Made by a program: the position numbers and the translations under genes
NCBI GenBank assembly: GCA_009699915.1
Contig: WLNG01000050.1
Location: 1 to 8,534, forward strand
DNA from: Actinomycetota bacterium
GTDB taxonomy: Bacteria > Actinomycetota > Thermoleophilia > Solirubrobacterales > Solirubrobacteraceae
Reading direction: 5' to 3'
DNA: 8,534 nucleotides
Notes under the pieces: model-generated
What the model saw: only the letters and a program-made list of their open reading frames with translations
Database searches by the model: none
What the model was told of the DNA's origin: nothing
Part shown: positions 1 to 5,836 of the stretch, in pieces
How the letters are laid out: each line of letters opens with the position of its first letter
Position numbering within the stretch: the stretch's first letter is position 1

Positions 1-1
1 C

Positions 2-556
2 GCTGCGGCGGTCCTGCTGCTCGGCGCGGGGGCCGGTGCGGCGCTCGCGGCGGCGCTGCGCAACGACCCGCAGCCGCAGCAGCCACGCACGACAACCCGG
101 GTGTCGAATCTCCCGGCTCCGGTCTCGCTCAGCCCCTACAAGGCCGAGGGGTATCAGGCGCGGGTCCCCGACGGTTGGGAGATCGTCGCCGACGACATGC
201 CGCGCGGCAGCGCGCGTGAAAGCCGCTGGCGGACAGGCGGGGTCCACGCCGCGGAGCTCGTGATCACCTACGCGCAGAACTCCGAGGCGACCCCCGAGAG
301 CGCGGCATCGGGCGACCGGGCGCGGCACTACCGGGCCCCGACCTTCTCCGAGCTCGCCTTCGGTCCAGTCGGGCTGGCCGGTGGCCAGGCCTACCGCTGG
401 ATCTACGGGGCGGCCGGCGAGGCGAACCTGAACTGGTACCTCAACCCCTGCGGGACTTCCGTCACCGTCCGCGGGCAGACGGGCTCGCGCTCGGTCCTCC
501 ACTGGGCGCCCACCTTCCGCACGGTCGCAGAGTCGGTCCAAACAGCCTGCGAATAG
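2..556 (+). CDS. C-terminal part of a membrane-anchored extracytoplasmic protein (5' end outside window)
   Basis: The frame is open from position 2 to the TAG at 554-556, giving 184 visible residues with no stop, so the gene begins upstream of the window. The first ~20 residues are Ala/Leu/Gly-rich and read as a membrane helix (AAAVLLLGAGAGAALAAAL). A short Pro/Gln/Thr-rich linker follows, then a compact domain of about 140 residues (from YQARVPDGW) that would lie outside the cell. It has two cysteines, in NPCGTS and in the C-terminal TACE, which could form a disulfide. Actinobacterial PknB-like Ser/Thr kinases often end in a helix, a Pro/Thr linker and a small sensor domain like this, so it may be a kinase tail. 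The kinase domain is not in view, so that is an inference. A GTG at 101 is an internal codon, because the membrane helix upstream is in the same frame. The P-type ATPase follows 23 bp downstream on the same strand. Confidence 0.7.
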   Translation, partial: AAAVLLLGAGAGAALAAALRNDPQPQQPRTTTRVSNLPAPVSLSPYKAEGYQARVPDGWEIVADDMPRGSARESRWRTGGVHAAELVITYAQNSEATPESAASGDRARHYRAPTFSELAFGPVGLAGGQAYRWIYGAAGEANLNWYLNPCGTSVTVRGQTGSRSVLHWAPTFRTVAESVQTACE

Positions 557-579: not shown

Positions 580-2457
580 ATGGCCCCCGACGACGACCGC
601 CAGGGCCTCCGCCGCCTGATCGCCGAGCACTTGCCGCGGGTGCTGGCACTGCTCTGCCTCACGGGCATCGTCAGCGGCGGAGTCCTCGCGCTCGTCGGGC
701 GAGACGAGGCCGCGCGCGTCGCGTGGGCGACGACGATCGTCGTGACGCTCATCCCGCTGACCTGGGGGGTGGTGCGGGCGCTGCTGCGCGCAGATGTGGG
801 CGTTGACGTCATCGCCCTCCTGGCCATGGCGAGCGCGCTCGCCGTCGGCGAATACCTCGCCGGGGCGGTGGTCGCACTGATGCTCTCCGGCGGGAACGCC
901 CTCGAGGCCTACGCGGCGCGGCGCGCGCGGCGTGACCTGACGGCCCTGCTGGCCCGGGCGCCGCGGGTGGCGCAGCGACGCGAGGGCGACCGCTGGATCG
1001 AGGTCCCGGTCGGCGAGCTGCGCCGCGGGGACCGCGTCCTGGTGCGGCGCGGCGACGTCGTGGCCGTCGACGGCACCGTCGACGGCGGCAGCGCGGTCAT
1101 CGATGCATCGGCGATGACCGGTGAGTCGCTGCCGGTGACCGTGCCGGCCGGAGGGTCGGTGCGCAGCGGCACCGCGAATGCCGGCGATCCATTCGAGCTC
1201 CGCGCCACGCAGCGCGCCGACGACTCGTCGTACGCAGCGCTTGTCCGGCTCGTGCGCGAGGCCGAGAAGGAACGGGCGCCATTCGTGCGGATGGCCGACC
1301 GCTACGCCGTGTGGTTTCTTTTGGTGACCGTGCTCCTGGCGGGGGGCTCATGGCTCGTCTCCGGTGACGCGGTGCGGGCCGTCGCGGTGCTCGTCGTCGC
1401 CACACCCTGCCCGCTGATCCTCGCGGCGCCGATCGCGCTGATCGGCGGGCTGTCCCGCGCGGCGCGCGCCGGGATCATCATCAAGGGCGGTTCAGCCATC
1501 GAGCAGCTCGGCGAGGCACGGACCGTCCTCCTCGACAAGACCGGCACGCTGACGATCGGCGAGCCCGGCGTGCGCGAGGTCATCCCCGTGAACGGCTTCG
1601 ACGAGGCCGAGACGCTGCGGCTGGCAGCCAGCGTCGACCAGCTCTCCGCCCACGTCCTCGCCGGCGGCCTCGTCCGCGAGGCACTCGGCCGAGGCCTGGA
1701 GCTCGCGCCCCCACTGGCAGCGACCGAAACCCCCGGTCAGGGGATCTCCGGGACGATTGAGGGACGCCGCGTGAGCGTCGGCAGCGCAGCCTTCCTGGCG
1801 GCCGAGGGGTGCGAAACCGATCAGGCCGCCGATCGGCTGATCGCCCTCGACCGCGCCGAGGGCATGGCACGTGTCATGGTCGGGATCGACGGTCGGCTGG
1901 CGGGCGTGATCGTCATGGCCGACCATCTGCGAGAGGACGCGGCGCAGATGGTGGCCGTGCTGCGTGAGCGCGGCGTGCAGGTCGCGATGGTGACCGGTGA
2001 CCACGAGTCGGTCGCGCAGGAGATCGCGCAGCGCGTCGGGCTGGACCAGGTCTACGCCGGACGCTCGCCCGAAGGGAAGCTCGAGGTCGTCGCCGCGATG
2101 CGCGCGCAGGAGCGGCTGCGGCCGGTGGTGATGGTCGGCGACGGAGTCAACGACGCTCCCGCACTGGCGCTCGCCGATGTGGGGATCGCGATGGGAGCCG
2201 CGGGATCGACGATCTCGGCCGAGACAGCCGACTGCGTGATCACGGTCGATCGCGTCGATCGCGTCGCCGAGGCGATCCGCCTCGGCCGCCGCACGCTGCG
2301 CATCGCACGCCAGAGCGTGCTGTGGGGGATCGGGCTGAGCGTTGCGGCGATGGGCATCGCGGCCGCCGGATATCTGCCTCCGGTTGCAGGAGCGCTCCTG
2401 CAGGAGGCGATCGACGTCGCGGTGATTCTCAACGCGCTGCGCGTCCTGCGCGGCTGA
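580..2457 (+). CDS. P1B-type heavy-metal-translocating ATPase, TPCP subgroup
   Basis: This 625-residue protein is an integral membrane pump that should use ATP to move a transition-metal ion across the cytoplasmic membrane. Visible motifs are TGES (180-183, actuator domain), the intramembrane TPCP (275-278), the phosphorylation site DKTGTLT (D319) and the hinge GDGVNDAP (520-527). Hydrophobic segments suggest eight helices: about 19-40, 45-68, a pair in 74-105, 242-262, 264-292, 580-597 and 602-622. There is no N-terminal CxxC metal-binding domain. The metal motif is TPCP rather than the CPC of Cu/Zn/Cd pumps, which resembles the P1B-5 group linked to Ni/Fe. The substrate cannot be fixed from sequence. 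The nucleotide-binding domain has SAHV (H358) where most P1B pumps have an invariant HP. The final helix carries QEAIDV, whose acidic residues may bind metal. ATG 580 is the first start and fits the N-terminus of the first helix, but no clear Shine-Dalgarno sequence precedes it. Confidence 0.95.
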   Translation: MAPDDDRQGLRRLIAEHLPRVLALLCLTGIVSGGVLALVGRDEAARVAWATTIVVTLIPLTWGVVRALLRADVGVDVIALLAMASALAVGEYLAGAVVALMLSGGNALEAYAARRARRDLTALLARAPRVAQRREGDRWIEVPVGELRRGDRVLVRRGDVVAVDGTVDGGSAVIDASAMTGESLPVTVPAGGSVRSGTANAGDPFELRATQRADDSSYAALVRLVREAEKERAPFVRMADRYAVWFLLVTVLLAGGSWLVSGDAVRAVAVLVVATPCPLILAAPIALIGGLSRAARAGIIIKGGSAIEQLGEARTVLLDKTGTLTIGEPGVREVIPVNGFDEAETLRLAASVDQLSAHVLAGGLVREALGRGLELAPPLAATETPGQGISGTIEGRRVSVGSAAFLAAEGCETDQAADRLIALDRAEGMARVMVGIDGRLAGVIVMADHLREDAAQMVAVLRERGVQVAMVTGDHESVAQEIAQRVGLDQVYAGRSPEGKLEVVAAMRAQERLRPVVMVGDGVNDAPALALADVGIAMGAAGSTISAETADCVITVDRVDRVAEAIRLGRRTLRIARQSVLWGIGLSVAAMGIAAAGYLPPVAGALLQEAIDVAVILNALRVLRG

Positions 2458-2467
2458 ACCTGCCGAG

Positions 2468-2484
2468 CGACGGCTCAGCCGTCG
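2468..2484. terminator. Hairpin between convergent genes
   Basis: A perfect inverted repeat, CGACGGC-TCA-GCCGTCG, has a 7-bp GC-rich stem and a 3-nt loop. It lies 11 bp after the ATPase stop and covers the stop codon of the opposing STAS gene, which forms the loop. No T-tract follows on either strand. The position suits a bidirectional U-less terminator of the kind proposed in high-GC actinobacteria. That function is inferred. Confidence 0.45.
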
Positions 2485-2827
2485 ATGAGCGCTGCGACGG
2501 CTGGATCGCGGTGCTCGAAGACATTCAGGAGCTCGTCGAGGCCGGTGATCGCGAGCGTCCGGGCGATCTCCGGATCGACATTCACGAGGACCACATCGCC
2601 CCCCACCGGACGCACCCGCTTCACGAGGCCGATGATCACGCCGAGCGCCGTGGAGTCCACGAAGGTCGTCTCCGTCAGGTCGAGGACGAGCTTCGGGGAG
2701 CCGGAGACCGCCTCGGTCGCCGCGGCCTTCACCTCCGGTGCGGTGTAGACGTCGATCTCACCGCGGACTGCGACGATCTCGACCCCCTGCGGGTGTCCGT
2801 CTCCCTGCTCACCGCGAACTCTGCCAT
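2475..2827 (-). CDS. STAS-domain anti-sigma factor antagonist (RsbV/SpoIIAA-like), frame disrupted near the N-terminus
   Basis: The protein is the anti-anti-sigma partner of the upstream GHKL kinase: unphosphorylated, it should bind the kinase and free the sigma factor. The STAS core is clear: an N-terminal strand region VEIVAVRGEIDVYTAPE, the strand KLVLDLT, then FVDSTALG with the expected phosphorylatable Ser (codon at 2652-2654), ending in DPAVAALIDG at 2475. The frame holding this core has no ATG, GTG or TTG between the upstream stop (2838-2840) and an internal GTG at 2732. Starting at 2732 would remove the first two strands. A plausible start, ATG 2827 (MAEFAVSRE), lies one base out of frame and its own frame stops at 2729-2731. 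One extra base between about 2784 and 2815, for example in the five-G run at 2783-2787 (minus strand), joins the two parts into 117 residues, the usual STAS length. It may be a sequencing error or a real mutation. The gene ends the three-gene minus cluster. Confidence 0.8.
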
Positions 2828-3896: not shown

Positions 3897-4682
3897 ATGA
3901 CATCAGTCATGTTCGAAGTACGGGCCACCGGACGGCGCGGCCCGATGGCCGCAGCAGAGGAGCGGGAGTTCCTGCGGCGCTGGCACGAAGAGGGCGATCG
4001 CCTTGCCCGCGAGCAGCTTGTCGAGCGCATGCTGCCCTTCGTGCGTCATGTGGCGCGGGTCTACACCGGGCGCGGCGAGCAACTCGAGGATCTCGTCCAG
4101 GTCGGGGTCGTCGGCCTGCTGAACGCGATCGACCGCTTCGACCTCGAACGCGGCCTGCGGCTCTCGACATTCGCCGCCCCGAACATCTCGGGTGAGATCA
4201 AGCGCCACTTCCGTGACCGCTCCTGGGCGGTGCGCGTCCCGCGCGACCTGCAGGAGCTCAGCGCCAAGGCGAGCAGGGCGACTGAGCGCCTGAGCGCGAC
4301 GCTCGGCCGCACCCCAACCGTCACCGAGCTCGCCGCCGTCCTGGATAGCGACGAGGAGCATGTCCTGGAGGCGATCGAGGCGGGCAGGAACTACGTGGCC
4401 GCGTCGCTCGACGAGCCCGGAGAGGATGGCGAGGGCCTCTCGCGCATCCCCGGCGTCGTCGACGGCGGGTTCCTCCTGGCGGAGGACCGCGTCATGCTGG
4501 GCGAGGGTCTCGCGGCGCTGCCTGAGCGCGAGCGCCAGATCGTCCTGCTGCGCTTCGCGCGCGGGTTCACCCAGCGCGAGATCGCAGATCACGTCGGGAT
4601 CTCGCAGATGCACGTGTCGCGGCTGCTGCGCCGCTCCATCGAGCAGATGCGCATGGCGATCGATTCGGGAGCCGCAGCCTGA
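3897..4682 (+). CDS. RNA polymerase sigma factor, SigB/SigF/SigG type (group 3 sigma-70)
   Basis: The 261-residue protein has sigma regions 2, 3 and 4 but no region 1.1. Region 2 spans about 40-112, with the core-binding segment LEDLVQVGVVGLLNAIDRF (64-82) and the -10-reading helix ISGEIKRHFRDR (97-108). The AVRVPRDLQEL that follows is typical of the SigB/SigF/SigG group. Region 3 spans about 115-190. Region 4 spans about 205-252, with the helix-turn-helix TQREIADHVGISQMHVSRLL (225-244) reading the -35 box. It should direct RNA polymerase to stress or developmental promoters when not held by the anti-sigma kinase encoded divergently at 3252-3686. ATG 3897 is supported by AAGGGAG 7 nt upstream. 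The gene is convergent with the MerR-type gene, with 8 bp between the stops and no clear terminator there. A short dyad, TGTCA-CGA-TGACA (3890-3902), covers the start codon. Confidence 0.95.
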   Translation: MTSVMFEVRATGRRGPMAAAEEREFLRRWHEEGDRLAREQLVERMLPFVRHVARVYTGRGEQLEDLVQVGVVGLLNAIDRFDLERGLRLSTFAAPNISGEIKRHFRDRSWAVRVPRDLQELSAKASRATERLSATLGRTPTVTELAAVLDSDEEHVLEAIEAGRNYVAASLDEPGEDGEGLSRIPGVVDGGFLLAEDRVMLGEGLAALPERERQIVLLRFARGFTQREIADHVGISQMHVSRLLRRSIEQMRMAIDSGAAA

Positions 4683-4690
4683 GCGACGCC

Positions 4691-5836
4691 TCACGCGCGC
4701 ACCGGGGAGCCGATGAGGGCGAAGCCGATCGTGGTGGCAAGCCCGAGCAACAGGTCCCGCTCGGCATCGCCGAGTGGGACCTCTCGGCGGAAGACCAGCA
4801 GCAGCAGTCCGAGCGTCCTGCCGGCAGCGACAATCGGGACGATCACCGCAGCACCCTCACCCGGGACGCCGAAGGCATGACAAGCCGGGAGGTCAAGCCA
4901 GTCCACGGCGCTGTCGCGCAGCGCCCCCGCGACTTCGGGGAAGGCAGCGGGATCGACGGCCGACGGCTCGAGCATCCCCTTCAACGACGGGCTCGCGACG
5001 AGGGTGCCGTCGACGACCGGCAGCAGCGCGGCGTCGAGCGCGCCGATCCTCGCGGCGAGCCGCCGGAGCGCCTCGCTGGCAGCGTCGACGCCGCCGTTCT
5101 CGCGTAGCGCGCCAGCTGCATCGTCGACGGCGACCGTCCAGGCGTTGACTCGGTCGAGCGAACCGCGCAGGCGGCTCATCTGCCGCTCGATCGCGTCGCC
5201 ATCCGGAAGTTCGCCATCGAACGCCCGGGTGGGGATCGCAACCAGCGCAGCGAGCGGCGCAGTCCCCGGCTCCTGCGGCAGACACCAGCCGACCGACGCC
5301 GTGGCGACCGGGAAATGCTCGGTCCAGGACGGGTGCTCGATCCAGGCGGGGCCGTCGCCGCCCGCGAAGAGCGCCTCGAGCGCCGCATGCCCAGCGCCGC
5401 CGGCGAATGCCGGTGCGCTGCGCAGCAGATCATCGCCGGCTGACGGGCCGTCAGGCACGGCGCGCAGACACCCGTTCACCCAGACGACCTCGAGCGGCTG
5501 AGGGCCGCTGACGACAAGCGCCGCAAACGGGGCGTGGTCGAGCGCTGCGACCAGATCCGGGACCGACCGGCCAGCAGGCTGCCGCCCGTCCCCGTGCTCG
5601 GCTCCATCGATCGCCTCGAGCAACGGGACACCCTGCTCGATCGCCCTGCGCACCGCCAGCACGCGGCGAACGTCGCCGACGTCGTAACGGCGGGCTGCAC
5701 CGGGACTGCGTACCGGCTCGGGGAATCCGTGGCGACGCTCCCAGGTGCGCAAACGTTCCCGGCCAACACCGGTCAACGCGGCGAACTCTCCTGCGCAGAT
5801 GGTCACCGGGGCCGGCGTCTTCGCGGTCATCGTCAT
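4691..5836 (-). CDS. MerR-family regulator with C-terminal sensor region (GAF-like, possibly PAS plus GAF)
   Basis: This 381-residue protein has a MerR-type winged-helix N-terminus (about 12-78): an ERLRTWERRHGFPEP recognition region, then SPGAARRYDVGDVRRV. The ERLRTWERR form resembles the CarH/LitR-like MerR branch. Residues ~95-200 look like a small ligand-binding or PAS-like fold (PFAALVVSGPQPLEVVWVN at 103-121 has the look of a PAS start). Residues ~250-375 look like GAF: a helix of the DAASEALRRLAARIG type, a central CHAFGVPGEGAAVIVPIV, then RTLGLLLLVF. It probably binds DNA and senses a small molecule or redox/light cue, but no chromophore or B12-binding motif is evident. The start may be ATG 5836 or ATG 5830. 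A TGTGT-TCGG-ACACA dyad lies 9 bp upstream. Its 3' end meets that of the sigma gene, so it may belong to the stress regulon, but position is the only evidence. Confidence 0.8.
   Translation of the reverse strand: MTMTAKTPAPVTICAGEFAALTGVGRERLRTWERRHGFPEPVRSPGAARRYDVGDVRRVLAVRRAIEQGVPLLEAIDGAEHGDGRQPAGRSVPDLVAALDHAPFAALVVSGPQPLEVVWVNGCLRAVPDGPSAGDDLLRSAPAFAGGAGHAALEALFAGGDGPAWIEHPSWTEHFPVATASVGWCLPQEPGTAPLAALVAIPTRAFDGELPDGDAIERQMSRLRGSLDRVNAWTVAVDDAAGALRENGGVDAASEALRRLAARIGALDAALLPVVDGTLVASPSLKGMLEPSAVDPAAFPEVAGALRDSAVDWLDLPACHAFGVPGEGAAVIVPIVAAGRTLGLLLLVFRREVPLGDAERDLLLGLATTIGFALIGSPVRA

Follow-up and report, generated by a model that had tools for sequence, protein, structure and literature searches.

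A one-base frame break in an rsbV-like anti-sigma antagonist gene: a probable recent lesion weighed against an assembly slip

This study asked whether an rsbV-like antagonist gene that appears one base out of register is broken in the organism, broken only in its assembly, or used in some other form. The window, the whole stretch of 8,534 bases that was analysed, is an entire contig (C176). The draft genome to which it belongs comprises 229 contigs totalling 1.47 Mb and has an estimated completeness of 60.6%. On the minus strand, a gene encoding an RsbW-like anti-sigma kinase (3686-3252) is followed by a gene encoding a 125-aa protein (3255-2878) and then by the split antagonist gene. The kinase matched the HATPase_c_2 profile and retains the intact motifs EACTN and DRGRG, which we take to be its ATP-binding motifs. 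Divergent from the kinase side, a gene on the plus strand (3897-4682) encodes a SigB/SigF/SigG-family sigma factor (TIGR02980, 254.8 bits; cut-off 234.35). The kinase and sigma genes are both uninterrupted, and the split gene beside them stands in an RsbV/SpoIIAA-type neighbourhood.

The gene order was compared by eye with that of another genome of the genus (G003, locus L134), in which a P-type ATPase, the STAS gene, the 125-aa family, RsbW, sigma, and a MerR-GAF gene follow one another as in the window. The window has the ATPase gene directly next to the STAS gene, and in G003 an additional open reading frame lies between the two (L134 3173-3958, plus strand), presumably for a cyanase, which its product resembles by eye. 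The MerR-type HTH and GAF-domain protein (4691-5836, minus strand) is encoded convergently with the sigma gene, has a similar counterpart at the equivalent position in G003, and is a possible sensor for the same module as the sigma switch. The contig starts within a gene (1-556, plus strand), the G003 counterpart of which resembles, by eye, a Ser/Thr protein kinase whose C-terminal part is extracellular.

Two frames that differ by one base in register run through the antagonist gene. The STAS-domain frame (VEIVAVRGEIDVYTAPE...AALIDG, 2475-2783, minus strand) is rsbV/spoIIAA-like, matches PF01740 with 82.0 bits when read from stop to stop, and is open from just past TAG 2838-2840 to the gene-end TGA 2477-2475. 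The original prediction stated that this frame has no start codon before the stop at 2838-2840, and the coordinates and codon inspection agree: the 18 STAS-frame codons between TAG 2838-2840 and the GTC at 2783 include no ATG, GTG, TTG, or CTG, and a start of this frame upstream of 2783 was accordingly rejected. The first usable start in the STAS frame is GTG 2732-2730, which opens an 85-aa remnant (2475-2732, minus strand) with the same sequence as the database protein P0003. The start reading MAEFAVSRE that had been placed at 2827, one base out of frame and ending at 2729 after 32 codons, was also confirmed on the sequence. This short frame (MAEFAVSRETDTRRG..., 2729-2827, minus strand) begins with ATG 2827-2825 and ends with TGA 2731-2729, and only its first 9 to 15 codons or so resemble relatives. 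Its stop sits on the internal GTG start in a GTGA overlap (2732-2729). The minus-strand G5 run described in that prediction was located at 2787-2783, within the stretch (2783-2803, minus strand) where codon scores, relatives, and the sequence suggest that the register changes. The one-base frame break in the rsbV-like gene was thus correctly observed and is confirmed.

Judged by codon usage and protein similarity, the register break exceeds chance. When frames were scored by the codon usage of this genome, the 18 codons of the STAS frame starting at 2783 gave +7.5 nats, and the ATG frame gave +1.1 nats for codons 1-15 and -9.4 nats for codons 16-32; a cruder frame detector produced noise on shadow frames, and only its codon scores were used. 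In a comparison with 19 relatives, the 17 residues VEIVAVRGEIDVYTAPE preceding the GTG reached a score of 1174; the highest score among 500 shuffles was 716, and that of the ATG frame over the same stretch was 260. The first 15 residues of the ATG frame (MAEFAVSRE...) scored 309 against a shuffle mean of 254; because 9 of the 500 shuffles reached 309, this N-terminal match to relatives is supported but modest. In the window, 56 nt separate the N-terminal F codon from GE[ILV]D, compared with 17-19 codons (51-57 nt) in the 19 relatives (17 codons in 3, 18 codons in 15, and 19 codons in 1, namely P0004, the nearest). Twenty relatives had been taken, and P0017, in which a GE[ILV]D match was absent, was dropped.

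A comparison with orthologues, which had been proposed together with the claim, was then made. Of 112 loci scanned, 111 had a STAS match, and 109 of these, many of them more distant STAS proteins and not strict orthologues, had an in-frame start at least 5 codons before beta-2 (the nearest start lying 7-18 codons before it). The two loci without an early in-frame start (L001 and L002) were both the window itself, so the break was conserved in none of the 109 other STAS loci. The loci examined included no close relative that shares this frame and starts elsewhere. At E 1e-12, 3 of the 17 genomes of the genus, including this one, gave a match; both of the other two have an in-frame start in their best match, and the frame break is therefore private to this species as sampled. 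Viral contigs scanned for the remnant yielded no relative. Judged by titles among the matches listed, the literature included no paper on the window's antagonist gene.

The 85-aa remnant frame scored 63.1 bits with PF01740 (cut-off 22.6) and 62.9 bits with TIGR00377 (cut-off 53.45), and it carries the DS[TS] phosphorylation site as FVDSTALG. The residues D61 and S62 are invariant across the 21 rows of the alignment (A1) and align with the DST of 6m36. In the model of P0004, the nearest listed relative (pLDDT 93.2), strands occupy residues 7-13 and 18-27 and the first helix residues 32-44. According to this model and the alignment, the remnant lacks both strands (beta-1 and beta-2) and begins inside the helix; a complete STAS fold is therefore absent from any single started frame, as both strands precede the GTG start. 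The remnant also lacks the GEID loop, although it keeps the DST serine. In Bacillus subtilis RsbV, an aspartate contacts RsbW (PMC7340262), and this aspartate aligns with the D of GEID, allowing for a one-residue offset in numbering that we infer. On the basis of the model, the remnant would be expected to fold poorly or to bind RsbW weakly, and the 85-residue product is shortened and probably inactive.

The switch might then operate as follows. Translation from ATG 2827 would end at TGA 2731-2729, and a fraction of the ribosomes may reinitiate at the GTG that overlaps this stop. The remnant keeps the DST serine, the residue that RsbW would phosphorylate. RsbW would hold the sigma factor sequestered unless another protein, possibly the RsbW-like 125-aa neighbour or a STAS protein encoded on contig C170, substituted as antagonist.

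We lean towards a real, recent mutation that placed the rsbV-like gene one base out of register and reduced its product to an 85-residue remnant probably unable to release the sigma factor. This account is more likely than a sequencing or assembly error, according to which the organism carries an intact gene and the consensus dropped one base; we regard such an error as possible. The fragmented and incomplete draft and the G5 run within the likely break stretch are both consistent with an error. The protein sequence past the break is otherwise well conserved, and the absence of decay in this part of the STAS frame was counted against a real lesion.

The same remnant, however, is listed on a second contig. 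P0003 has two member sequences on two contigs, the longest of 12,210 bp; the identity with the window's sequence was established for one of the two members. The 125-aa neighbour is likewise listed on two contigs (longest 12,210), and the neighbouring ATPase is listed in two versions, one on a contig of 8,534 and one on a contig of 12,210, that differ at 4 of 625 residues. We equated contigs of equal length, taking the two 12,210-bp entries as one contig and the window's contig as the other one of P0003. Because its ATPase version differs at these residues, the second contig is not a mere copy, and the reading of a single assembly error is weakened, as a contig with a slightly different neighbouring gene lists the same remnant. 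An intact copy from this species was absent among the 69 proteins listed, the next best being 73% identical; an intact 117-residue version would share words and length range with the query in that listing, on the assumption that a copy on the second contig would be called from its ATG.

The ATPase differences are clustered. The 12,210-bp version departs from the window at residues 80, 83, 85, and 99, which correspond to window positions 817-876 (plus strand). Three of the differences are changes to arginine and fall within the codons at 817-834, a stretch in which the window, unlike the 12,210-bp version, matches G003; if these arose in single steps, two would be T-to-G and the third may be A-to-C, as deduced from the protein. 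The clustering suggests read errors in the 12,210-bp contig at modest coverage, so that coverage may be low and reads may be common to both contigs. Such error-like substitutions, approximately 2 kb from the break, favour an error at the break as well. The use of the second contig as proof of a distinct strain was dropped, as the differences cluster and look like read errors.

We also estimated how frequently the assembly breaks frames by using a codon Viterbi model on 61 contigs (512,529 bases), with at least 10 codons demanded on each side of a break. The model returned 72 raw events, of which 70 fit a gene-junction rule and the remaining two (L194 and L207) were junctions by eye. After the model and inspection, no mid-gene frameshift was left in the 512 kb at a sensitivity of approximately 59%. 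This sensitivity derives from 129 simulated deletions: at a penalty of -8 and before any junction rule, 119 were found, and at -10, once the rule was applied, 76 were recovered; the 512-kb run used a slightly wider junction rule than the latter test, and its sensitivity may be a little lower. In an earlier pass over 21 contigs, three events were left over at -8 (two of them also at -10), and these were junctions by eye. The first run of the model, at a penalty of -15 on 160 kb of this genome, gave seven events, each with at most 3 codons on one side. In the control genome G003 (271 kb), 7 candidates were left at -10 and 11 at -8 before inspection. The model was silent at the antagonist gene because the 5' piece of this gene is too short; therefore, the background rate covers longer gene-internal breaks only. 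None of the 72 raw candidates was left in the sample examined, and on this sample we rejected the view that the assembly is frame-broken throughout. The lack of any such break in 512 kb argues against an error at the antagonist gene, with a sensitivity that is lower still for short 5' pieces.

A further reading accepts the break as fixed and the STAS antagonist as dispensable: the 125-aa protein would have taken over by pairing with RsbW, and a phosphorylation switch would have become a heterodimer switch. We consider this improbable. The 125-aa protein gave no Pfam or NCBIfam match at E 0.001. Its model (pLDDT 89.1) predicts an RsbW/SpoIIAB fold, with SpoIIAB 1th8_A as the best match (Foldseek E 2.0e-7, TM 0.73), and by eye it lacks the N-box Asn and the DxGxG of RsbW. 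Within the fetched stretch around the STAS gene, the family was present in all 10 of the closest loci (L003-L012, from the same genus or the same family), in none of 10 loci from another family of the order (L013-L022), in 4 of 9 further loci (L023-L031), and in 1 of 80 genome-contig loci. The structural model and this distribution make the 125-aa protein a candidate for an extra partner in the sigma switch. An additional RsbW-type protein in a SigF-type switch has been described in Mycobacterium smegmatis, in which the extra RsbW homologue RsbW3 acts as an anti-SigF antagonist through interaction with RsbW1 (PMC7693655). RsbW3 is likened to the window's protein by putative role, and it differs in that the window's 125-aa protein lacks ATP motifs by eye; it may serve by analogy as a precedent for the neighbour as a stand-in antagonist and is not evidence for it.

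Other partners were sought in the draft genome. Among its five sigma matches, only the window's sigma gene was above the SigB/F/G cut-off, and the window's RsbW was the best of five HATPase_c_2 matches (86.7 bits compared with 27.3 for the next). One SpoIIE-type phosphatase was found, together with two other STAS genes, L216 on C170 (G000:C170:1542-1832, 58.8 bits) and L217 on C90 (G000:C90:1846-2106, 27.4 bits), the products of which might supply an antagonist. Because approximately 40% of the genome is missing by the completeness estimate, further switch partners may lie outside the draft.

It is also conceivable that the arrangement is the normal layout, with a short open reading frame coupled to an 85-residue working protein by termination and restart at GTGA; we likewise consider this improbable. 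The overlap is exact, and the 85-aa form is the one listed, on two contigs. Nevertheless, such a protein would be missing the GEID loop and two conserved strands, relatives still match the STAS frame strongly ahead of the GTG, and an earlier start is present in all 109 other loci. Moreover, GGAG abuts the GTG, and a GGAG directly abutting a start codon is too close to serve as a Shine-Dalgarno site. Least credible of all is a programmed minus-one ribosomal slippage on the G run that would join the two frames and keep the yield of full-length antagonist low and regulated. A minus-one slip on GGG would fit the direction in which the register changes, but no X XXY YYZ heptamer is present (zero-frame codons AGG GGG TCG, by eye), the downstream RNA at 2700-2790 has a z of -0.44 with 62 of 200 shuffles folding as well in a test that covered structures other than pseudoknots, the 109 other loci read in a single frame from a start, and among the papers searched none joined the terms programmed ribosomal frameshifting, anti-sigma, and slippery. 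Slippage was rejected, with heptamer, RNA structure, and conservation all absent, and either restart or slippage is unlikely as a working mechanism. Among the outcomes originally envisaged, the best-supported one is loss of the antagonist, with no more than a remnant made from GTG 2732, and rescue by slippage found no support.

If the lesion is real, as we favour, the lineage would have lost the normal on-switch of the only above-cut-off SigB/F/G sigma factor in its 60.6%-complete draft and would offer a natural example of a stress response that has been locked off or rewired. If the break is an error, it illustrates that single-base breaks in drafts can make a complete switch look like a pseudogene. 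Neither outcome would surprise a specialist, and the conserved RsbW-fold neighbour without ATP motifs is of more interest than the lesion itself.

The antagonist gene resembles the RsbV/SpoIIAA family (TIGR00377, PF01740; PDB 6m36 and 1th8) in its STAS domain with a conserved DS[TS] phosphorylation site and in its position beside genes for an RsbW-like kinase and a SigB/F/G-family sigma factor. It differs from this family in that its first two strands and the GEID loop lie outside the started frame of the remaining gene. In laboratory Staphylococcus aureus, the rsbU deletion is a loss-of-function lesion in a sigma-B activator, a phosphatase gene, with known phenotypes; with a positive regulator impaired by this small deletion, the sigma factor stays bound to RsbW. 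In contrast to the rsbU deletion, the probable lesion in the window concerns the antagonist gene and is known from assembled sequence alone.
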